Positions 15,052 to 27,935 of a stretch of DNA of 41,825 nucleotides are shown here, piece by piece. Below the pieces are notes generated by a model. The model saw only the letters and a program-made list of their open reading frames with translations, was not told the origin of the DNA and did not search any database. This DNA is from Kofleriaceae bacterium (GTDB taxonomy: Bacteria > Myxococcota_A > Polyangia > Haliangiales > Haliangiaceae): assembly GCA_022842285.1 (NCBI GenBank), contig JALHPV010000026.1, positions 1-41,825 on the forward strand, read 5' to 3'. Both the position numbers and the translations under genes were made by a program. Each line of letters starts with the position of its first letter. The stretch's first letter is position 1.

Positions 15052-16016
15052 ATGGTAGCGCCCGCGCCGGTGAGCTCGACTGACATCGGTGCCGTACGCA
15101 AGCTCGAGGACGCGATCGCGACGGTTGTCCGCGGCAAGCCGGAGGCCATCCGCGCCGCGGTCGTGACGCTGCTCGCCCGGGGCCACCTCCTCCTGGAGGA
15201 CATCCCCGGCGTCGGCAAGACGACGCTGGCCCGCGCCCTCGCGGCCGCGCTCGGCGGGACGTTCCGGCGCATCCAGTTCACGAGCGACCTCCTGCCGTCC
15301 GACATCGTCGGCGTGTCGATCTACGACCAGCACGGCAAGATGTTCGAGCTGAAGAAGGGGCCGATCTTCGCGAACATCGTCCTCGCCGACGAGATCAACC
15401 GCACCACGCCCCGCACGCAGTCCGCGTTGCTCGAGGCGATGTCGGAGAACCAGGTCTCGATCGACGACGCGACCCACCAGCTCGACACGCCGTTCATGGT
15501 GCTCGCCACCCAGAACCCGGCCGAGCACTACGGCACGTATCCCCTGCCCGAGTCACAGATGGACCGGTTCCTGATGCGCATCTCGCTCGGCTATCCGGGC
15601 AAGGCCATCGAGCGCGAGCTGCTGAAGGAGCGTGCTGGCGGTGACCCCGTCGCGAAGCTCTCTCCCGTCGTCGACCTCGCGGCCGTGCGCAGCCTCCAGG
15701 ATGGCGTCGAGAGCATCCGCTTCGACGACGCCCTCGTCGACTACGCGATGACGATCGTCGAGGAGACGCGCGGGCACACGAGCATCGCCGTCGGGGTCTC
15801 CACGCGCGGCGCCCTCGCCTGGTACCGCGCCGCGCAGGCCTCCGCGCTCGCCGCCGGTCGCGACTTCGTGGTGCCGGACGACGTGAAGGGCCTCGCCGTG
15901 CCCTGCCTCTCGCACCGCCTCGCCCTCGCGCAGACCTATGACTCGCTCTCCCGCGCACGCATCGACGCGGAGCGGCTGATCGCCGACATCGTCGCGCGCG
16001 TCGCGGTTCCGACTTG

Positions 16017-16017
<1 letters not shown>
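15052..16017 (+). CDS. MoxR-family AAA+ ATPase
   Basis: A 321-residue MoxR AAA+ ATPase. Walker A is GVGKTT within [19 protein letters not shown] (near residue 53), and Walker B is [20 protein letters not shown] (near residue 113), which includes the MoxR-typical NR-TP-x-TQ sequence. Sensor 1 is [23 protein letters not shown]. MoxR proteins act as chaperone-like partners of VWA-domain or DUF58 proteins in assembling envelope or metal-cofactor complexes. It is the first gene of a tight three-gene operon with DUF58 and transglutaminase genes, joined to the next by a TGATG overlap. This triad is widespread in bacteria, but its substrate is unknown. Confidence 0.95.
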
Positions 16018-17168
<1,151 letters not shown>

Positions 17169-17169
17169 G

Positions 17170-19326
17170 ATGAGGTTCGCCGTCGCTCACAAGGTGACGA
17201 CGTACATGCTCGTCGTCTTCGCGTTCCTCGCGATGACGGGCGGCGGGGCCGTCGCCGCCCCCCTCACCCTCGGGGGCCTCGCCGCGATCGCCGTGTCGTG
17301 GTGGTGGGAGCCACCACTCGTGAAGATCGAGAAGTGGACGTGGCTGTGGACGGTCCTCTCCGTCTTCGCGCTCGCCTACAGCGTGCTCATGGCGATCGCG
17401 AGCGGCGACTTCCTCTCGGTCGGCGGCCAGTTCCTGATCTGGCTCGCGATCGTGAAGCTGTTCAATCGGCGCGCGGCGAAGGACTGGCAGCAGATCTACC
17501 TCCTCTCGTTCCTGATGCTCGTCGCGGGCTCGGTGTTGAACGCCGAGCTGACGTACGGCATCTGCTTCCTCGGCTTCGTGATCACGGCGACCTGGGCGCT
17601 CACGCTGTTTCACCTGCGCCGCGAGATCGAGGAGAACCTGCTCGTCAAGCACGCCGCGGATCGCCGCAGCGAGCGCGTGGAGGTGCGCCGCATCCTCGAC
17701 TCGCGCCGCATCATCGGCGGGCGCTTCCTCGCCGGCACCGCGATCCTCTCGCTCGGCGTGTTCCTGCTGTCGGCGGTGATCTTCCTCTCGCTCCCGCGCG
17801 TGGGCTTCGGCTTCTTTCTGAAGCAGCGCGGCGGGCTCACCCTGTCGGGGTTCACCGATGGCGTGAAGCTCGGCGGCCACGGCGTGATCAAGAACGATCC
17901 GACGGTCGTGATGCGCGTGGAGATGGATGGCGTCTGGGGCAGTCGCTCGGCGCCGGCGCTCCACTGGCGCGGCGTGGCCTTCGACAAGTATGCCGACGGG
18001 CGCTGGCTGCGCGGCGGGCGCGCCCCCCGGACGTTACAGACGCTCGAGACGGGTCCCGTGAAGGACCGCCGGGTCCTCTTGTGGACGGGCAAGGCGATCC
18101 CGGTGACCGCGATCGACGAGCTCGCCGAGCGCACCGTGAAGCAGGAGATCTGGCTCGATCCCCTCGACTCGGACGTCCTGTTCGGCGCCAGCAATCCGCG
18201 CATCGTCGAGTACGCGCACGTCGTGCGGCGCCGCAATCCGCCCGAGCGCAACGACGAGATCCGCCTCGAGCACGGCAACACGCTGCACTACACGGTGTGG
18301 TCCGAGCTGACGCCACCGCCGGTCGACGAGCTGCGCGCCGCCACGGGCCCGTTGCCAAACGGCTTCGAGGTCTACACGCAGCTGCCGCCCCAGATCACGC
18401 AGCGCACGCGCGACCTCGCGCAGCGCATCACCGCGGGCAAGACGAACCAGTACGACCGCGCGGTTGCCATCATGGACTGGCTCCAGAGCAACCTGACGTA
18501 CACGCTCGAGCTGCGCGACCCGGGCGAGCAGGAGCCCGTCGACTACTTCCTGTTCGACCGCAAGCAGGGCCACTGCGAGTACTTCGCGTCGGCGTTCGCG
18601 ATCCTCGCCCGCGCGGCCACGCCGCCCATCCCCGTTCGCAACGTGAACGGATTTCTGGGAGGCGAGTGGAACGAGTACCAGGGCTACGTGGCGGTCCGCG
18701 CCGGCGACGCGCACTCGTGGGACGAGGTCTTCTTCCCCGGCGTGAACGGGACCGGCGCGTGGGTCACGTTCGATCCCACGCCCCCGGCCGACGAGCTCGG
18801 TCGCGGTGGTACCGGCTGGCGCGCCCGCCTCGGCCGCTGGCTCGATACCCTGAAGTTTCAGTGGAGCAAGTGGGTCATCGAGTACGACCTCGTCTCGCAG
18901 CTCTCGCTGTTCAAGTCGATCGGCGCCGCGTTGAAAGACGCCGCGAACTGGATCAAGGCCCGCATCAAGTGGCTCGCCCCGCTCGTCGGTGGGATCGTGC
19001 TCCTCGTGCTGGGCGTGACGCTGTGGCGGCGGCGGCGCCTGCGCGCCCGGGATCCCGATGCAGCACCACGCCGGGCGCCCCGGCGGCGCACACCGATCGC
19101 CGAGCTGTATCTGACAGTCCGCAAGAAGCTCGGGGTGGTCGCCCCCGGCGAGACCCCGCGCGAGCTCGCCGCGCGCCTGCGTGCGACCGATCACGTGGCG
19201 GCTACCGAGGTCAGCGAGCTGACGGAGCTCTATTACGCGTCCGAGTGGGGCCGGCGCGCCACGGCGGCGTCCGAAGCGCGGGCGGCCGAGCTCGTCGCTG
19301 CCATCCGTGCCCGTATGGCGTCGTAG
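17170..19326 (+). CDS. TgpA-type membrane transglutaminase-like protein
   Basis: A 718-residue protein of the DUF3488/TgpA class. The N-terminal 210 residues hold about six membrane spans. A periplasmic transglutaminase-like core follows, with the full Cys-His-Asp triad: GHCEYFASAF (near residue 467), DAHSWDEVF (near 513) and WVTFDPTP (near 534). A last span (LVGGIVLLVLGVTLW, near 605) leads to a cytoplasmic tail with a DUF4129-like segment (LYLTVRKKLGVVAPGETPRELAARL ... LYYASEWGRR). It is the third gene of the MoxR-DUF58 operon. The family is inferred to modify or cleave periplasmic proteins or peptidoglycan peptides; the catalytic residues are all intact. Confidence 0.93.
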   Translation: MRFAVAHKVTTYMLVVFAFLAMTGGGAVAAPLTLGGLAAIAVSWWWEPPLVKIEKWTWLWTVLSVFALAYSVLMAIASGDFLSVGGQFLIWLAIVKLFNRRAAKDWQQIYLLSFLMLVAGSVLNAELTYGICFLGFVITATWALTLFHLRREIEENLLVKHAADRRSERVEVRRILDSRRIIGGRFLAGTAILSLGVFLLSAVIFLSLPRVGFGFFLKQRGGLTLSGFTDGVKLGGHGVIKNDPTVVMRVEMDGVWGSRSAPALHWRGVAFDKYADGRWLRGGRAPRTLQTLETGPVKDRRVLLWTGKAIPVTAIDELAERTVKQEIWLDPLDSDVLFGASNPRIVEYAHVVRRRNPPERNDEIRLEHGNTLHYTVWSELTPPPVDELRAATGPLPNGFEVYTQLPPQITQRTRDLAQRITAGKTNQYDRAVAIMDWLQSNLTYTLELRDPGEQEPVDYFLFDRKQGHCEYFASAFAILARAATPPIPVRNVNGFLGGEWNEYQGYVAVRAGDAHSWDEVFFPGVNGTGAWVTFDPTPPADELGRGGTGWRARLGRWLDTLKFQWSKWVIEYDLVSQLSLFKSIGAALKDAANWIKARIKWLAPLVGGIVLLVLGVTLWRRRRLRARDPDAAPRRAPRRRTPIAELYLTVRKKLGVVAPGETPRELAARLRATDHVAATEVSELTELYYASEWGRRATAASEARAAELVAAIRARMAS

Positions 19327-19435: not shown

Positions 19436-21430
19436 ATGCGTCTGGGTCTAGCCTTCCTGATCCTCGTCGCGCTCGGCTCGACGGCTCACGCGCAGCTGAG
19501 CACTGGCGCCACGATTTCCTTCGACGAGTTCCGGGTCGAGGTCGATGGCAACTTCGTCATCCCCACCACCGAGGAAGCCCAGCGCTTCTTCCTGAACACC
19601 GCGACCTGTGAGTGCTCGCAGGCGGACGCCGAGGAGACGACGATCGCCTACAACATGGGCGTCGAGGGCACGGGCCCGGTCACGCCCGCCGAGATCTGGG
19701 TCGGCACGGGCTGCGATCAGGAAGCAACCCGCATGATGACGTGCCGCAAGCTCGACACGGTCGTCGACAATATCTACGACTTCGACATATCCCAGAACGA
19801 CATCAGGGTCAGCGTGTTCGACCTCGTCAACAGCCGCCCCGGCGACGAGAGCATGAACTGCAAGCCGATCGTGGCCGCCACCCTGTGGGTGCTCGTCGAC
19901 GAGGGCACGAACGGCAGCTACGAGCTCATCGAGAGCATCGGCGTCGGCACCACCGATACCTCGATGCCCATCAACGGCGGCGTCGACACGACCCCCCCCG
20001 CCCTCCCCGAGAACATCGTCGCCAACGCGAGCGAAGAAGCCGTTCGCATCACCTGGGATGTGGCCCTGACGGATCAAGGCATCTTCGGCTATCAGGCCTT
20101 CTGCGCGCAGAACGGCGCCGCCGTGTTCGATGCGGGCGAGCGCGTGTCACCGAAGTACCGCACGGCCGGCCTCGTCTGCGGCGCGGCCGTCGAGGCGGAT
20201 CTCACCGAGTCGCCGGTTGCGGAGGACGACGCGGGTGAGCCGCTGACGGAACCGCTGAGCGCGTTCCGCAACCTCGACGCGACGTTCCTGTGCGGCGAGG
20301 CCATCTCGCCCACGGCCGACTCGCTGACGATCCAGGGCCTCGAGAACGACGTGCCCTACGAGGTGGCGCTGGTCGTCGTCGACCTCCACGGCAACTACAC
20401 GGGGACGTATTTCACGAGCACCGTGCTCCCCAAGTCGGTCACCGACCTCTGGGAGGACATCAATGACCGCGGCGGCGAGATCCAGGGCGGCTGCCTCGGG
20501 ACGACGCTCCCCGGCGATGGCGGCCCCTTCGGCGGCCTGCTCGTCGGCGGCGCGCTCCTCCTCGGCATGAAGCTGCGCGGCCGTCGCCGCACCGTGCTCG
20601 CGGCTGGCGCCGTGGTCGCGACGCTCGCCGGCACCGCCGCTGCCGATGACTTCCGTCCGTACTGGGAGGAAGAGACGCAGATCGACGACGGCACGAACCT
20701 CTACGACCTCGGCGACGTGCGCTGGCATGTCGGCATCAAGGTCGGTCCGTACATCCCCGACATCGATGGCCAGATCGGCGTGAACCCCACCACGGGCCTG
20801 GGCCCGTACGCGGCGATGTTCGGTGACTGGTACGACATCGAGGAGGGCACCGGGAGGCTCGACGCGCACAACGCGCGCGTCTGGCAGATCCTGCCGATGC
20901 TCGACGTCGACTACGTGCTCTGGCGCGGGTTCGGGCAGGTCACGGTCGGCGGCAGCATCGGCTACATGCAGAAGTCCGCGCCGGCGTACCTGGCGGGCAC
21001 GTCCCCCGACGATCCGAAGCGGCTGCGCTCGACATCCAACGAGACGGTGTTTCGCCTGATCCCGACCCAGGCCAACGTCGGCTATCGGTTCACGTACCTC
21101 TCCGATACGTATGGTGTGCCGGTCGTGCCCTTCGTACGGGGCGGCCTCGCCTACTACATGTGGTTGATGAAGGCGCCCAACGGCGAGGCGTCGGCGGTCG
21201 GGATGAACACGGCGAAGGGCGGCACCTTCGGCTTCGTGGGCGCGGTGGGCCTGGCCATTCGCGCCGAGAACATCGATCGCGACACCGCGCGCTCGATGCG
21301 CGAGACGGGCGTCGATCACGCCGGCTTCTACGTCGAGTGGTCGCTCGGCATGGTCGACGGGTTCGGCGCGTCCGACAAGCTCTCCGTCGGAGACTCGACG
21401 TTCTTCGGCGGCTTCGACTTCGAGTTTTAG
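19436..21430 (+). CDS. Fused exported protein: FN3-like, MYXO-CTERM-like tail, second signal and outer-membrane barrel
   Basis: A single 664-residue frame that reads like two genes. Part 1 (residues 1-377) has a Sec signal ending AHA before Q, a Cys-containing domain, a fibronectin-III-like domain (PPALPENIVANASEEAVRITW), and a tail of Cys353, glycine/proline linker, hydrophobic span and Arg cluster, as in MYXO-CTERM sorting signals. Part 2 begins at an in-frame ATG (20567, Met378) with a second good signal peptide ending TAAA before D404. It continues as about 260 residues of amphipathic strands ending in Phe, an outer-membrane barrel pattern. The halves resemble what I recall as the neighbouring MXAN_2561 (MYXO-CTERM) and MXAN_2562 (barrel) families of Myxococcus. 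The start is ATG 19436, where the signal begins. Confidence 0.78.
   Translation: MRLGLAFLILVALGSTAHAQLSTGATISFDEFRVEVDGNFVIPTTEEAQRFFLNTATCECSQADAEETTIAYNMGVEGTGPVTPAEIWVGTGCDQEATRMMTCRKLDTVVDNIYDFDISQNDIRVSVFDLVNSRPGDESMNCKPIVAATLWVLVDEGTNGSYELIESIGVGTTDTSMPINGGVDTTPPALPENIVANASEEAVRITWDVALTDQGIFGYQAFCAQNGAAVFDAGERVSPKYRTAGLVCGAAVEADLTESPVAEDDAGEPLTEPLSAFRNLDATFLCGEAISPTADSLTIQGLENDVPYEVALVVVDLHGNYTGTYFTSTVLPKSVTDLWEDINDRGGEIQGGCLGTTLPGDGGPFGGLLVGGALLLGMKLRGRRRTVLAAGAVVATLAGTAAADDFRPYWEEETQIDDGTNLYDLGDVRWHVGIKVGPYIPDIDGQIGVNPTTGLGPYAAMFGDWYDIEEGTGRLDAHNARVWQILPMLDVDYVLWRGFGQVTVGGSIGYMQKSAPAYLAGTSPDDPKRLRSTSNETVFRLIPTQANVGYRFTYLSDTYGVPVVPFVRGGLAYYMWLMKAPNGEASAVGMNTAKGGTFGFVGAVGLAIRAENIDRDTARSMRETGVDHAGFYVEWSLGMVDGFGASDKLSVGDSTFFGGFDFEF
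20492..20644 (+). other. Internal MYXO-CTERM-like tail overlapping a second signal peptide
   Basis: This is the junction within the fused protein. Cys353 (20492-20494), a Gly/Pro linker, a hydrophobic span (GGLLVGGALLLG) and KLRGRRR form a MYXO-CTERM-like tail. The same KLRGRRR is the positive end of a signal peptide that starts at ATG 20567, runs TVLAAGAVVATLAG and ends at a signal-peptidase I site after Ala403. No Shine-Dalgarno sequence precedes the internal ATG. Confidence 0.6.
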
Positions 21431-21463: not shown

Positions 21464-22765
21464 CTAGAGCTCGTAGCCGAGCGAGCCGCCGACGTTGGTG
21501 AACGCATCGGTGGCGCCGCTGGCCGAGAATCCCGCCATCGGATTGCCGGCGCCGAACGTCCACGCGTAGCGCGTGTAGCTCGCCTCCACCGTGAAGAAGA
21601 GCTTGCCGGCGTGGAGCAGGACGCCGCCCCCGAGCTTGAGGCCGGTCGCGCTGGGGTTGTTGAAGCGATCCCCGAAGCCCTTGCCCGAGACCACGATGCG
21701 GTTCTCGGCCGCCACGAACGGCTCCAGCTTGGCGAGCTTCACCGAGGCGCGGCCCCCGATGCGCACCGAGCTGTAGTCCGCGTCGGGCACCTGGACGAGC
21801 TGGGAGGCGTCGGTCGCGTTGAAGCGATGAATGTCGCGTACGTAGCCGGCCCCGACCTCGAGGGAGGCGAGGTCACCGAGCAGCCAGCGATGGCGCGCGC
21901 TGACCTGGAACGTCCGCCAGTACGTCGAGAGCCCCGTCTCCATCTCGTTCTCGTCGAGCACGGGCTGGGAGTTCGCGCCGTGGCCGTAGTGGACGATGAG
22001 AGCCAGCCCGCGGAGGGCCTTCACGCCGAGGAGGGTGCCCGGATACACCTCCACGTACGGCCCGACGAGCACCTGGCCCGCCTCGGTCTCGGGCTTCAGC
22101 TCCCCCATGGGGTTCTCGTACTTGAAGTTACGGAAGCCGACCGTGACCAGGGCCGAGACGGCGAGGATGGGCCCGGCACGCGGCGGGCCTGGCTTCTCGG
22201 GCTCCTCGGTCGGCGTCGGGTTCAGGGGATCCGTGTCGTCGATATCCGGCCCCGGGTCCGCGGGCTCGACGAAGCGCTTCCCCTCGACGGTGACCTCGCC
22301 CCCGTTCTCGAGCTCGACGGACTCGGAGTGGACCTCCCGGTCGTCGACCAGGAGCACGACCTTGTGCGTCCCGGGCTCGATCTCGATGCGCGCCGGCGCC
22401 GAGCCGCGCGGCTTGTCGTCGATGGAGATCTCGGCCCCGCGGGGGCCCTTGACCAGGATCGTCCCCGAGGCCGCCTCGAGCTTGAAGGTGAACTTCGGCT
22501 TCTTGTCCCGCTTGCCGACGTCGACGTTCTCGAGGAGCGAGGTGTAGTTCTCGAGCTCGATAATTAGGGTGTGCGAGCCGACCGGAACGCTGACGTTACA
22601 GGGGGTCGTACATAGCGCCCCGTCCTCCTTGAGGTTCAGGTAGACGGTCGCCCCCTCCGGCTCGGTCACGATCTCGACCTTTTTCTTTCCCTGGGCCTCG
22701 GCCCGGGCTGGCGTCCCCAGGGCGACCGCACACGCGACTAGTGTGCTGAGCAGACCGCGGGCCAT
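21464..22765 (-). CDS. PEGA-domain protein with C-terminal outer-membrane-like barrel
   Basis: A 433-residue exported protein. The signal (ARGLLSTLVACAVALGTPARAEA) is followed by two PEGA domains: the first at VEIVTEPEGATVYLNLKEDG with a Cys pair (LCTTPCNV), the second at GTILVKGPRGAEISIDDKPRG. An acidic Pro-rich linker (DIDDTDPLNPTPTEEPEKPGP) joins these to about 210 residues of alternating strands, ending SLGYEL, that look like a beta barrel. PEGA domains are thought to bind cell-wall or surface carbohydrate. The long upstream frame is a shadow; ATG 22765 starts the signal and has TATGAT six bases upstream. It converges on the fused MYXO-CTERM/barrel gene, a possible functional neighbour. 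Confidence 0.8.
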   Translation of the reverse strand: MARGLLSTLVACAVALGTPARAEAQGKKKVEIVTEPEGATVYLNLKEDGALCTTPCNVSVPVGSHTLIIELENYTSLLENVDVGKRDKKPKFTFKLEAASGTILVKGPRGAEISIDDKPRGSAPARIEIEPGTHKVVLLVDDREVHSESVELENGGEVTVEGKRFVEPADPGPDIDDTDPLNPTPTEEPEKPGPPRAGPILAVSALVTVGFRNFKYENPMGELKPETEAGQVLVGPYVEVYPGTLLGVKALRGLALIVHYGHGANSQPVLDENEMETGLSTYWRTFQVSARHRWLLGDLASLEVGAGYVRDIHRFNATDASQLVQVPDADYSSVRIGGRASVKLAKLEPFVAAENRIVVSGKGFGDRFNNPSATGLKLGGGVLLHAGKLFFTVEASYTRYAWTFGAGNPMAGFSASGATDAFTNVGGSLGYEL

Positions 22766-22771
22766 GGCGGG

Positions 22772-22777
22772 ATCATA
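22772..22777 (-). promoter_or_regulatory. Putative -10 element of the PEGA-barrel gene
   Basis: On the reverse strand TATGAT ends six bases before ATG 22765, with no Shine-Dalgarno sequence between. The divergent TerB-like gene starts only 43 bases away, so promoter elements for both genes must overlap here. Confidence 0.42.
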
Positions 22778-22808
22778 GCGCGTTCGATTACCATCTCGCC
22801 AAGTCGCG

Positions 22809-23702
22809 ATGGACCGGAGCGTGAAGGACCTTCTCGGGGGGTCATTGAAACCCAATGACCCCCGGCGCTTCCTTATCGAAGCCATGGTTGGAGCCATGAA
22901 CTCCGACGGGTCGATCGACCCGCGCGAGCTCGCCGTCATCGAGCACCAGCTGGAGCAGCACCCGCTCTTCCAGGGCCTGACCCCGGCGGCGTCGCGCACC
23001 CTGATCGACCTGTCGAGCGACGCCATCCAGTTCGCGGGGAACGCCCTCGCCCGCGCCCCCATGATCGCGCGCGGCCTCCCCGCCCGCATCCACCGCATCG
23101 CCGCCTACGGGATGGCCGCCGAGGTCGCGGTCGCCGACCAGACGATGCACCAGGGCGAGATCGAGTTCCTCGACGGACTTCGCATCGCCCTGCGCATCTC
23201 GCCGCTCGAGTCGGAGCAGATCATCGGCTACGCCCACGCCGGCGTGCTCGGTCCGTACCTCGAGGACCGCTACCTCCGGATCAAGAACCTCATCCCGGCG
23301 GCCTGCGAGGTGTTTGCCCTGCGGGCCCTCGCGCGCGGGGTCGCGACCGATGACCACCGCTTCCGCGTGCGCGACTTCTTCGCCGCGATGCCGGACCTCA
23401 CCCTCTCGCGCGACGAGCTCGACGCGGAGCTGTACCGGTCCTTCCGCCGGCCGCGCTCGCCGCATGCGCAGGTGTTCGGCGAGCTGGCGCGTGTCGCGGC
23501 GGCGATGCCCGACCCTGTCGATCGCTACTGGATGGTCGTCTACGCCCTCGTCGCCGAGACACCGTCCACCGTGCCGAGCTGGCGCGTGGTCCCGTTCATC
23601 GGCGTCCTGCAGACGACGTTTCAGATCTCGGACACCGATATGGGGCTCGCGGTCGCGGACGCACTGACATTCCCGCCTGCCATGCCTCGGCCTACTGTTT
23701 GA
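22809..23702 (+). CDS. TerB-like (tellurite resistance-type) domain protein
   Basis: A 297-residue, mostly helical protein without a signal peptide. Residues 20-60 (LIEAMVGAMNSDGSIDPRELAVIEHQL) and 95-150 (RIAAYGMAAEVAVADQTMHQGEIEFLDGLRIAL) match the pattern of TerB/DUF533-type domains: helix, acidic loop with D-G-x-I-D or D-x-x-M-H-x-G-E, helix. These acidic loops bind metal in TerB. The C-terminal half is a further helical region I do not recognise. It has TACCAT 14 bases before the ATG. It is divergent from the PEGA-barrel gene and followed 34 bases later by a SUKH-family gene. Actual tellurite resistance is not implied; many such proteins act in stress or surface complexes. Confidence 0.7.
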   Translation: MDRSVKDLLGGSLKPNDPRRFLIEAMVGAMNSDGSIDPRELAVIEHQLEQHPLFQGLTPAASRTLIDLSSDAIQFAGNALARAPMIARGLPARIHRIAAYGMAAEVAVADQTMHQGEIEFLDGLRIALRISPLESEQIIGYAHAGVLGPYLEDRYLRIKNLIPAACEVFALRALARGVATDDHRFRVRDFFAAMPDLTLSRDELDAELYRSFRRPRSPHAQVFGELARVAAAMPDPVDRYWMVVYALVAETPSTVPSWRVVPFIGVLQTTFQISDTDMGLAVADALTFPPAMPRPTV

Positions 23703-24216: not shown

Positions 24217-24266
24217 GCGACTTTCGTCACGCGAACGTCAAACATCGCGTGCTAGGGTCCGCGCCG

Positions 24267-27200
24267 ATGCGCCGGAGCCTGTCTGTTTTTTGGCTGTCGC
24301 TTGCCCTGCTCGCAGGAGCCCTCGCGGGACCTGGCTGTAGCTGCGGCGGGGATGATTCGTCCGACGACAACCCCGATGGGGACGAGACGATGGACGTCGA
24401 CTCGAACCCGGATGACGGGATCCTGCCCGACGGCCCGGAAGCGACGGAGGTGGTCTGCGAGATCATCTCGCCGCCCGCCTCGGGCACCTGCGAGGTGACC
24501 GCCGGAGGTGAGGCCAAGCTCTTGAAAGGCACCGTGCTCACCCCCGACACGGTCTATATCGGTGGCCAGGTGGCTCTCGACGCCGAGGGTCGGATCAGCT
24601 GCGTGGGCTGCGATTGCGAGGAGGCCGGCCAGACGGTCGTCACGTGCGCGGAGGGCGTCATCTCGCCCGGCCTCATCAACCCGCACGACCACATCACGTT
24701 CACGCAGAACCAGCCCTATAACGATGTCGGCATCCGGTACGAGCACCGTCATCAGTGGCGCATCGGCCAGGACGGCCGCCCGAAGATCCCGTCGCAGGGC
24801 AGCGCCACGGGCGATCAGATTCGGTGGGGCGAGCTCCGCTTCCTCATGGGCGGCGCCACGTCGATCGTCGGCAGCGGTGGTCAGGCCGGCTTCGTCCGTA
24901 ACCTCGACCGCGAGAACCTCCAGGAGGGCCTCGGTCAGGGCGCGGTGAACTTCGACACGTTCCCGCTGAACGACTCGTCCGGCACGCGCCGCGCGGGCGA
25001 CTGCAACTACGGCGGCTCGCCGACGACGGCCGCGAGCATCACCGGCGATGACTCCTACGAGCCCCACACGTCCGAGGGCATCGACGACACCGCGCGCAAC
25101 GAGTTCCTCTGCCAGTCGTCGTCGGAGTTCGACACGATGGCCCCGGGCACGTCGAACAACCTGCTCTTGCCGAAGACGGCCATGATCCACGCCGTCGGCC
25201 TCAAGCCCGCGGACCTCGATGCGATGGCGCAGGCGAGCACCAGCCTCATCTGGTCGCCGCGCAGCAACATCACGCTCTACGGCGACACGGCCCGCGTCAC
25301 GACGGCGCGCGCGCTCGGCGTCAACATCTCGCTGGGTACGGACTGGATGCCCACCGGCTCCATGAACATGCTGCGCGAGCTGCGCTGCGCCGACGAGATG
25401 AACCGGAACTACTACAACAACACGTTCTCCGATCGGGAGATGTGGCAGATGGTGACGACGAACGCCGCGGTCGCCACGAAGACGGACGACGTGATCGGGC
25501 TCCTCGCCCCCGGCAAGGTCGGCGACATCGCGATCTTCAAGGCCAACGGCAAGACGTTCCGCGCCGTCATCGAGGCGGAGCCGCAGGACGTGATGCTCGT
25601 CCTCCGTGGCGGGCGCGCGCTGTATGGCGAGGCCACCACCGTCGATGCGCTCGCCGATAACTGCGACGCCGTCGACGTGTGCACGAGCGCCAAGCGCGTG
25701 TGTGCGACGAGCGAGGTCGGCAAGACCTACGAGGCGCTGAAGACGGGTGCCGGTTCGAGCTACCCCGCGTTCCAGTGCGGCGAGCCGATGAACGAGCCGT
25801 CGTGCCACCCGGAGCGTCCGGAGAGCATCGATGGCTCGACGATCTTCACCGGCGAAGCGACCGCGACGGACAGCGACGGCGATGGCATCCCGAACGCGTC
25901 GGACAAGTGCCCGATGGTGTTCGACCCGGCGCGCCCTCTCGACAACGGCATGCAGGGCGATGCGGACGGCGACGGCGTGGGCGATGCCTGCGATGTGTGC
26001 CCGCTCGATGCCAACAGCACGACGTGCACGCCGAGCAATCCGAACGACCGCGACGGCGATACGGTCGAGAACTCGGCCGACAACTGCCCCGATCTGGCGA
26101 ACACCGATCAGGCGGACATGGACAACGACGGCAAGGGCGACGTCTGTGACGCCTGCCCGATGGCGGCGAACCCGGGCGCGCAGGGCTGCCCGGCGTCGAT
26201 CTACTCGATCAAGACGGGCGCGACGCCTGTCGGCACCGCGGTCCGCGTGACGAACGCGCTCGTGACCGGCAAGGGCGCCAACGGCTTCTTCGTCCAGGCC
26301 AAGATGGGCGACCCCGGCTACATGGGCACCGACAACTCCGGCATGTTCGTGTTCACCTCGAACGCGGCCTACCTCGCCGCCGCCAACGTCGGGGCGCGGG
26401 TGTCGATCGAAGCCACGGTCGAGAACTTCCAGGGGCAGATCGAGCTGTCGTCCGTCTCCGGCGTCACCGTGGATGCGGCGGGCCCCGAGGCGCTGCCCGC
26501 TCCGGTGTCCGCCACGTACGCCGAGGTGAAGACGGGTGGCCCGCGGGCGGCCGCTCTCGAGGGCGTCCTCGTCTCGCTCGGTGCGGCGACCGTCTCGGCG
26601 GTCCAGCCGATGTTCGGCGAGTTCACGCTGACGGCGGGGGCCGACAACCTCGTCGTCGACGACTTCCTGTTCGTGCCGACCCCGGCCCCGCAGGTGGGTC
26701 AGGCCTACTCGTCCACGCGCGGCATCGTCACGCTCCGCTCGGCGGGCGGCGGCGTCTCGGTGATGAAGCTCCTCCCCCGCTCCGCGGCAGATCTGGTCGC
26801 GGGCGCACCGAACCTCGCGAGCCTCACGCCGGCCGTCTCGTTCACGACGGTCGGGACGGTCAACGCCCCGACGTTCCCCACGCCCCTCCGGGTGAACCTG
26901 ACCGGCCCCGCGCAGGGCCCGACGGTGGTGACCTTGACGTCCATGTCGCCGACCACGCTCACGGTCATGAACGTCACCGTCCCCGACGGCGCCACGGGCA
27001 TCGACGTGCCGGTCAGCGGCCTGGTGATGGGCACGACCGTCATCACCGGCCAGATCGGCGCGGGCATGGTGCAGATGGCGATGGTGCGCGTCCTGGGCGT
27101 GGCCGAGCAGCCGACGACGGTCACGCTCTCGCCCACCGAAGCGAGCGTGCCGGCCAGCGGCTCGGTCACCCTCACCGCGACGCTCGACATCCCGGCGCCG

Positions 27201-27935
27201 GCGGGCGGCACGACCGTGAACCTCACGACCACGGCGGGCTCGGTCCCGGCGACGGTCACGGTGCTCGCGAACCAGACTGCGGCGACCTTCTCGTTCACCG
27301 AAACGGTGGGCTCGGGGATGGCGACGGTCACGGCGACGCTCGGGGGCAGCACCAGCACGGCGACGATCACCGTCTCCACCGGCGTGCAGAACCTCGTCAT
27401 CAACGAGGTCGAGTACGACCAGCCGTCCACGGACGAGACGGAGTACATCGAGATCTACAACCCGACGGGCGCGGCCGTCTCGCTCGCCGGCAAGCAGCTC
27501 CTGCTCGTGAACGGCGCGGACGAGACCGTCTACGACACGATCGACCTCTCTCCCGCCGGCTCGCTGCCGGCCGGTGGCTACCTCGTCGTCGCGGGTAGTG
27601 GGGTCAGCGTCATGGCGCCGGCCATCAAGGTCATGACGGGGTGGACCTCGAACGCGATGCAGAACGGCCCGGACGCGATCGCGCTCATCGACAACACCGC
27701 CCACACGCTGATCGATGCGTTCTCCTACGAGGGCGCCGTGAACAACGTGGACCTGCCCGGCTTCTCCGGGCCCGTCAATCTCAACGAGGGCGCGACTCCG
27801 TCGACGGTGACGGACCTGGCGATGGTGGGCCAGGGCGTGTGCCGCAGCCCGAACGGCACGGACACCGACGTCGTCAACGCGGACTGGAAGGCCTGCCCGG
27901 CCAGCGTCGGCGCGGCGAACCCGGTCGTTCCCTGA
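24267..27935 (+). CDS. Giant lipoprotein: amidohydrolase plus TSP3, Ig-like and lamin-tail domains
   Basis: A 1222-residue lipoprotein (lipobox GPGC, then an acidic linker). Residues about 60-480 form an amidohydrolase of the ATZ/TRZ type with a complete metal set: His140 and His142 (NPHDH), His267 (PHTSEG), His308 (MIHAVGL) and Asp359 (LGTDW), then KVGDIAIF near the end. Residues about 535-640 are thrombospondin type 3 calcium-binding repeats (DSDGDGIPN..C, DADGDGVGDAC). Residues about 640-850 contain OB- or Ig-like strands, 850-1040 have repeats of bacterial Ig/Calx-beta style, and 1042-1222 form a lamin-tail domain (LVINEVEYD ... EYIEIYNPTG). A surface-exposed hydrolase is likely, with an unknown amide or cyclic-imide substrate. 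ATG 24267 begins the signal. Confidence 0.85.
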   Translation: MRRSLSVFWLSLALLAGALAGPGCSCGGDDSSDDNPDGDETMDVDSNPDDGILPDGPEATEVVCEIISPPASGTCEVTAGGEAKLLKGTVLTPDTVYIGGQVALDAEGRISCVGCDCEEAGQTVVTCAEGVISPGLINPHDHITFTQNQPYNDVGIRYEHRHQWRIGQDGRPKIPSQGSATGDQIRWGELRFLMGGATSIVGSGGQAGFVRNLDRENLQEGLGQGAVNFDTFPLNDSSGTRRAGDCNYGGSPTTAASITGDDSYEPHTSEGIDDTARNEFLCQSSSEFDTMAPGTSNNLLLPKTAMIHAVGLKPADLDAMAQASTSLIWSPRSNITLYGDTARVTTARALGVNISLGTDWMPTGSMNMLRELRCADEMNRNYYNNTFSDREMWQMVTTNAAVATKTDDVIGLLAPGKVGDIAIFKANGKTFRAVIEAEPQDVMLVLRGGRALYGEATTVDALADNCDAVDVCTSAKRVCATSEVGKTYEALKTGAGSSYPAFQCGEPMNEPSCHPERPESIDGSTIFTGEATATDSDGDGIPNASDKCPMVFDPARPLDNGMQGDADGDGVGDACDVCPLDANSTTCTPSNPNDRDGDTVENSADNCPDLANTDQADMDNDGKGDVCDACPMAANPGAQGCPASIYSIKTGATPVGTAVRVTNALVTGKGANGFFVQAKMGDPGYMGTDNSGMFVFTSNAAYLAAANVGARVSIEATVENFQGQIELSSVSGVTVDAAGPEALPAPVSATYAEVKTGGPRAAALEGVLVSLGAATVSAVQPMFGEFTLTAGADNLVVDDFLFVPTPAPQVGQAYSSTRGIVTLRSAGGGVSVMKLLPRSAADLVAGAPNLASLTPAVSFTTVGTVNAPTFPTPLRVNLTGPAQGPTVVTLTSMSPTTLTVMNVTVPDGATGIDVPVSGLVMGTTVITGQIGAGMVQMAMVRVLGVAEQPTTVTLSPTEASVPASGSVTLTATLDIPAPAGGTTVNLTTTAGSVPATVTVLANQTAATFSFTETVGSGMATVTATLGGSTSTATITVSTGVQNLVINEVEYDQPSTDETEYIEIYNPTGAAVSLAGKQLLLVNGADETVYDTIDLSPAGSLPAGGYLVVAGSGVSVMAPAIKVMTGWTSNAMQNGPDAIALIDNTAHTLIDAFSYEGAVNNVDLPGFSGPVNLNEGATPSTVTDLAMVGQGVCRSPNGTDTDVVNADWKACPASVGAANPVVP

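Follow-up and report, generated by a model that had tools for sequence, protein, structure and literature searches.

Guo, Haft and Wall (2025) described MXAN_5598, a protein in which an internal MYXO-CTERM precedes a barrel and OmpA domains; a gene fusion was suggested for this case and processing of the N-terminal part was proposed by the authors (PMC11980579). In the same work C-terminal sorting tags are reported to be functional from the middle of a protein, with MXAN_5598 proposed as a case, and the frames of TraA and TraB are noted to overlap (PMC11980579). No paper naming MXAN_2561 or MXAN_2562 was found in the literature collection searched. To our knowledge, bacterial polyproteins that need cleavage into two separate envelope proteins have rarely been documented.

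The window, that is the whole analysed stretch of 41,825 nucleotides from a Kofleriaceae bacterium (contig JALHPV010000026.1), contains at positions 19436-21430 of the plus strand a single frame of 664 codons, which opens with ATG at 19436 and meets its first stop at 21428-21430. A preceding sequence-only reading had placed two proteins in this frame, and no stop was indeed found between these points. Signal peptide 1, FN3-like domain(s), a Gly-Gly-Cys tail, a span, an Arg cluster, signal peptide 2 and an OmpA-like barrel follow each other in the order listed below, in agreement with the layout proposed earlier, where the second signal peptide, starting from the internal ATG at 20567 (M378), led into the barrel.

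19436-21430, plus strand: whole open frame of 664 aa, surface-type protein fused to an outer-membrane barrel (sequence; homologous fused frames in relatives)
19436-19492, plus strand: signal peptide 1, residues 1-19, predicted cut after AHA19 (sequence; conservation)
19493-20485, plus strand: exported domain with FN3-like folds, distant match to the MXAN_2561 family (NCBIfam, 47.1 bits; AlphaFold2 and Foldseek)
20486-20494, plus strand: Gly-Gly-Cys motif, residues 351-353, proposed lipidation/cleavage site (invariant in 20/20 Kofleriaceae)
20528-20566, plus strand: first hydrophobic span, residues 365-377, proposed stop-transfer part of the sorting tail (sequence; CFI-box-CTERM at the same position in most relatives)
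20567-20569, plus strand: internal ATG (M378) without Shine-Dalgarno (-1.7 kcal/mol), not conserved (start-site scoring)
20570-20590, plus strand: KLRGRRR, residues 379-385, proposed cytoplasmic loop, end of the tail and n-region of signal peptide 2 (sequence)
20591-20644, plus strand: signal peptide 2, hydrophobic core 386-400 and A401-A402-A403, predicted cut before D404 (A401 and A403 invariant in 20/20)
20645-21427, plus strand: mature outer-membrane barrel, residues 404-664, about 8 strands (NF040596; model pLDDT 83.5; Foldseek)

Signal peptide 1 reads MRLGLAFLILVALGSTAHA^Q, and its A17 and A19 are at least 90% conserved among 20 Kofleriaceae. Residues 1-384 match the model of the MXAN_2561 family (NF045522) over its full length with 47.1 bits (E 2e-12), which is below the cut-off of 150 bits, a value reached in none of the 188 genomes of the phylum sample. 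Judging by this match, the N-terminal half is homologous to the MXAN_2561 family and, by the NF045522 cut-off, is not its equivalog. Residues 429-664 cover positions 1-208 of the 208 in the model of the MXAN_2562 family barrel (NF040596) with 162 bits, above the cut-off of 100. The N-terminal half stands directly upstream of the MXAN_2562-type barrel, an arrangement implied by the locus tags MXAN_2561 and MXAN_2562 themselves, and the adjacency of these two families, named in the sequence-only reading, was recovered in the right order, with the first match below its cut-off and the second above. Pfam gave no match to either half. In the AlphaFold2 model (20 fused relatives) the exported part and the barrel are confident and residues 353-424 have pLDDT below 50. 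Foldseek returned FN3 proteins for the whole chain, so that the FN3-like domain suspected from the letters has its counterpart in the predicted fold, and OmpA (E 6e-6), Ail, NspA and OmpW for the barrel alone (pLDDT 83.5, about eight strands).

Based on this layout one can assume that the gene would encode an MXAN_2561-type anchored surface protein plus an MXAN_2562-type barrel, for which relatives use two genes with a 4-nt overlap, and that one ribosome would produce one precursor of 664 residues. Its export would be begun by signal peptide 1; the first span would stop the transfer, with the exported FN3 part staying attached through it and the Arg cluster remaining cytoplasmic. The second hydrophobic run may then restart export as an internal signal peptide, and a cut by signal peptidase I at A401-x-A403^D404 would free the barrel for outer-membrane assembly. 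At Cys353 the tail would probably receive a lipid and be cleaved by a CPBP protease of the myxosortase type, so that the FN3 protein remains anchored and some 50 residues of hairpin are discarded as waste. Instead of coupled initiation the fusion would give a fixed 1:1 output. Processing of the fused precursor into anchored protein and barrel, by signal peptidase I and probably a myxosortase-type protease, is in our opinion its probable fate. We infer both cuts, lipidation, the final location and the role of the 1:1 output, the cuts at Cys353 and at TAAA^D from conservation of these sites.

The cut at Cys353 is the weakest step of this scheme, since the tail of the 664-aa protein scores 8.7 bits against MYXO-CTERM (TIGR03901), below the cut-off of 20, and its first span is short (about 13-15 residues). 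The order of MYXO-CTERM elements, namely Cys motif, hydrophobic span and Arg cluster, is present at residues 351-385, and KLRGRRR can indeed be read both as the end of the tail and the start of the second signal, as had been noticed from the sequence. Assignment of the tail to MYXO-CTERM, made in the same reading, was not supported: besides the low TIGR03901 score, most relatives carry CFI-box-CTERM (NF041770, cut-off 40 bits) in this place. It matches the tail position in 17 of the 20 aligned Kofleriaceae at E 0.01 or better, with 72.3 bits (above the cut-off) in relative G016 and 29 (below it) in G004; the NF041770 search of the 664-aa window protein gave no match. The window tail retains GGCL..T..GDG and looks, by its letters, like a shortened derivative of CFI-box-CTERM. 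Within this CFI-box-CTERM clade of fused Kofleriaceae, the window and the pair G019/G022 have short tails, which means that the fusion and the Cys were retained through a change of the tail. The GGC motif (351-353) is invariant in 20/20 aligned Kofleriaceae fusions, and the junction otherwise varies in sequence and length. We suppose that the Cys may be the anchoring residue in both short-tail and CFI-box-CTERM forms, and cleavage at Cys353 appears plausible. The automatic tail labels of G012 and G050 are wrong by pattern, which bears solely on a count of tail changes that plays no part here.

A candidate enzyme is encoded in the same genome: the CPBP protease at C123:14904-15578 (L093) scores 105.7 bits with the myxosortase core model Mrt_core (cut-off 100), staying below the cut-offs of MrtX, MrtC and MrtP, with the best subtype score for MrtP. 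In this genome 47 places exceed the MYXO-CTERM cut-off. TraA and MrtX have already been co-expressed in E. coli. Alternatively, signal peptidase may make the only cut; the FN3 protein would then either remain in the inner membrane by its span or be set free by a different protease. The low-scoring tail with its short span would fit such an outcome, as does the fact that in mrtX mutants of M. xanthus part of TraA reaches the surface without the protease (PMC11980579). However, Cys353 and the two Gly are invariant in 20/20 in a tail that was otherwise replaced or shortened, and we regard this outcome as unlikely.

As for the second cut, the frame most likely encodes a polyprotein that is cleaved at least by signal peptidase I. 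A-x-A is the recognition pattern of signal peptidase I, and residues 379-403 contain a basic n-region, a hydrophobic core and such a site, as in an internal signal peptide; A401 and A403 are invariant in 20/20 aligned Kofleriaceae fusions within the otherwise variable junction. The next residue is mostly Gln across this alignment and D404 in the window. One may suppose that the second signal stays uncut and that the two hydrophobic runs pair as a plain hairpin in the inner membrane, tethering the protein, the more so as a hairpin is the topology predicted by the sequence before any cut. The invariance of A-x-A speaks against it, as does the barrel of split relatives, which has an ordinary N-terminal signal peptide at the corresponding place. 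Moreover, most members have only a short linker between the hairpin and the OmpA-type barrel, which leaves an uncut chain little chance of reaching the outer membrane. A tethered protein is therefore quite improbable.

Conservation of the frame and loss of internal start signals, like the frame and the conserved cut sites themselves, were computed directly. The genome search covered 56 genomes (own genome and relatives) and gave matches in 53. Since open-frame lengths over-call fusions in GC-rich genomes, loci were classified by frame and stop; open frames of 600-900 aa in several of these genomes (e.g. G040, G075, G104), considered as fusions, proved to be split pairs. At the class level 91 loci were classified, 45 as fused and 46 as split, and 3 more had no identifiable N-half on the available piece. 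Every Kofleriaceae locus whose two halves share a contig is fused, and in-frame fusions are found also in other families of the class (f2, f3, f4, f7, f9, f13). Both forms were thus registered when the locus was compared in relatives, which is the check that had been suggested together with the polyprotein idea. Junctions of the fused loci of the class (n=44, G038 left out) have 28 different lengths, all multiples of 3 and without stops; as a clean fusion G038 is doubtful, its linker of about 100 residues reading like non-coding sequence, with an ATG at -23. A phylum-wide sample gave 29 further barrel loci, 20 fused (all outside the class) and 9 split, one of which (G100) comes from within the class and was excluded from later counts. 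A tblastn search against plasmids gave no match.

Split pairs reveal how the barrel is started as a separate gene. In 40 of the 46 its start overlaps the upstream stop by exactly 4 nt (ATGA in 25, GTGA in 15), and a strong Shine-Dalgarno is present at 43 of 45 barrel starts (median -8.6 kcal/mol). In many pairs it is formed by Arg codons of the upstream sorting tail, e.g. CGGAGGCGG. At split junctions such as those in L117, L129 and L131 the tail Arg codons double as Shine-Dalgarno (AGGAGG, CGGAGG) next to an ATGA/GTGA overlap. In a rival reading the barrel would mostly come from its own start at ATG 20567, the long product being minor or degraded; the ATG sits in the window at the right place, where split relatives start the barrel with their 4-nt overlap. 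Yet it has no Shine-Dalgarno (-1.7 kcal/mol), and 33 of 44 fused loci lack ATG, while 17 of 44 lack any ATG, GTG or TTG in the stretch where the signal peptide could start. The best start candidate of fused loci has a median of -2.5 kcal/mol, the same as control internal codons. AGG makes up 31 of 191 Arg codons in split tails vs 2 of 255 in fused junctions (p 2e-10), the background share being 5-6% in both sets and fused junctions falling below their own (p 0.003), and strong Shine-Dalgarno sites occur in 5 of 44 fused loci vs 43 of 45 split starts (p 3e-17), though these p-values overstate independence because the loci are related to one another. What counts is the repetition of lost start signals over several fused lineages. 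With Shine-Dalgarno and AGG codons gone and 17 of 44 loci having no usable start, internal initiation in fused genes is unlikely, and for the barrel of the window we give it a low probability. Thus the preference of the sequence-only reading for a polyprotein over internal initiation gains support from the codons of fused relatives. The result is weaker for the 20 extra fused loci outside the class: only 3 are devoid of a start, and 11 offer one or more candidates at -4 or better; this fair Shine-Dalgarno at some candidate start makes internal starts less firmly excluded there.

The fused/split label changes on the barrel tree at least 7 times (91 rows) or at least 11 times (119 rows), of which well-supported branches alone force 3 and 4 changes, respectively, and gain of the fusion is indistinguishable from its loss in these counts because the trees are unrooted and made by a quick method. 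Locus L067, from the 1.6 Mb genome G033 of the same order, is split although its clade is fused; it has a TAA stop and a tail resembling CFI-box, and possibly represents fission. The fusion of two proteins is genuine and conserved. An assembly or sequencing error joining two genes has a negligible probability, as even for a draft of 550 contigs the join is no slip when the same fusion appears in dozens of genomes from different species, each assembled separately, and 45 of 91 class loci, including all readable Kofleriaceae, are fused in frame.

The gene environment is conserved as well. Upstream of the fused frame the window contains:

15052-16017, plus strand: MoxR-type AAA ATPase, first gene of the conserved upstream set (domain match; synteny)
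16014-17168, plus strand: DUF58 protein (domain match; synteny)
17170-19326, plus strand: TgpA-type membrane transglutaminase, directly upstream in fused and split loci (domain match; synteny)

This MoxR-DUF58-TgpA set lies upstream of both forms, fused and split, in Kofleriaceae and in families f3, f7, f13, f15 and f22; this supports the view that the two arrangements are orthologous and that the halves share a function. That the pairing has lasted beside this set implies joint work of the anchored FN3 protein with the barrel, as for TraA and TraB. Downstream, a PEGA-domain protein (21464-23098, minus strand) is convergent with the fusion, and a large lipoprotein-like frame with amidohydrolase, thrombospondin type 3 and lamin-tail domains occupies 24249-27935.

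In the own genome, most MYXO-CTERM places that were examined end 0-10 residues before the stop. Six others are followed by at least 216 in-frame residues, which open with a second signal peptide:

C261 (L208:2842-6264), minus strand: adhesin-like N-part, internal MYXO-CTERM, second signal peptide, TraB-like barrel with OmpA domain
C236 (L209:2364-7724), minus strand: the same arrangement
C54 (L210:1964-6853), plus strand: the same arrangement
C34:2502-6365 (L207:2003-5866), plus strand: internal MYXO-CTERM, lipoprotein-type signal peptide, further domain
C122 (L206:2-2845), minus strand: as in C34
C18 (L212:755-5503), minus strand: as in C34

The first three continue into TraB-like OmpA proteins (220, 266 and 169 bits to NF033763 for C261, C236 and C54, all below the cut-off of 700), the last three into lipoprotein-type signals. 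The C34 type is a single frame in most Kofleriaceae genomes searched and also in related families; 14 relatives read directly have the Cys motif, span, Arg cluster, second span and a lipobox-like Pro-Gly-Cys or similar. The place at C55:25098 was not counted as an internal motif, its downstream sequence resembling off-frame translation.

We see an even chance that two-signal polyproteins form a general class in Myxococcota. In such a chain a second signal peptide would immediately follow the internal Cys sorting tail, and processing by signal peptidases together with proteases of the myxosortase type would give a surface-anchored protein and one of at least three sorts of partner (small barrel, TraB-like OmpA barrel, lipoprotein); 4-nt-overlap pairs would have repeatedly become fusions or the reverse. 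Fused and split pairs across the phylum provide a natural test of one chain cut into two envelope proteins: related genomes carry the same pair in both forms, overlapping genes and fusion, so one can test directly whether internal initiation, each cut site and equal amounts of the partners are needed.

In comparison with known systems, the frame of the window shares with MXAN_5598 a surface-type N-part, an internal sorting tail and an outer-membrane barrel in one frame, and the C261, C236 and C54 frames of the own genome also resemble it; MXAN_5598 differs in its C-part, composed of a barrel and OmpA cell-wall-binding domains, and was reported as a single atypical protein rather than a family that has split and fused members. 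The models of the MXAN_2561 and MXAN_2562 families (NF045522, NF040596) match the halves in order but represent separate proteins, whereas the window has one frame with its N-half below the cut-off. TraA and TraB, engaged in outer-membrane exchange, likewise combine a MYXO-CTERM surface protein with a barrel partner in overlapping genes; they are two proteins with other domains, and a TraA-TraB fusion is not reported in that work (PMC11980579). CFI-box-CTERM (NF041770) is a sorting-type domain that most fused Kofleriaceae relatives carry at this junction, but it is named as a C-terminal domain and the window protein has lost most of it. The name of midcut-by-XrtH proteins (NF033207) implies a cut in the middle of a protein, and the G019 junction resembles them weakly (13.4 bits, below the cut-off of 45); they belong to an exosortase system. 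Thus, the polyprotein idea is already published for one protein, MXAN_5598 (PMC11980579), while a second family, which is phylum-wide and occurs both as 4-nt-overlap pairs and as fusions, is new, as are the codon-level evidence against an internal start and the exchange of the tail type inside a fusion.
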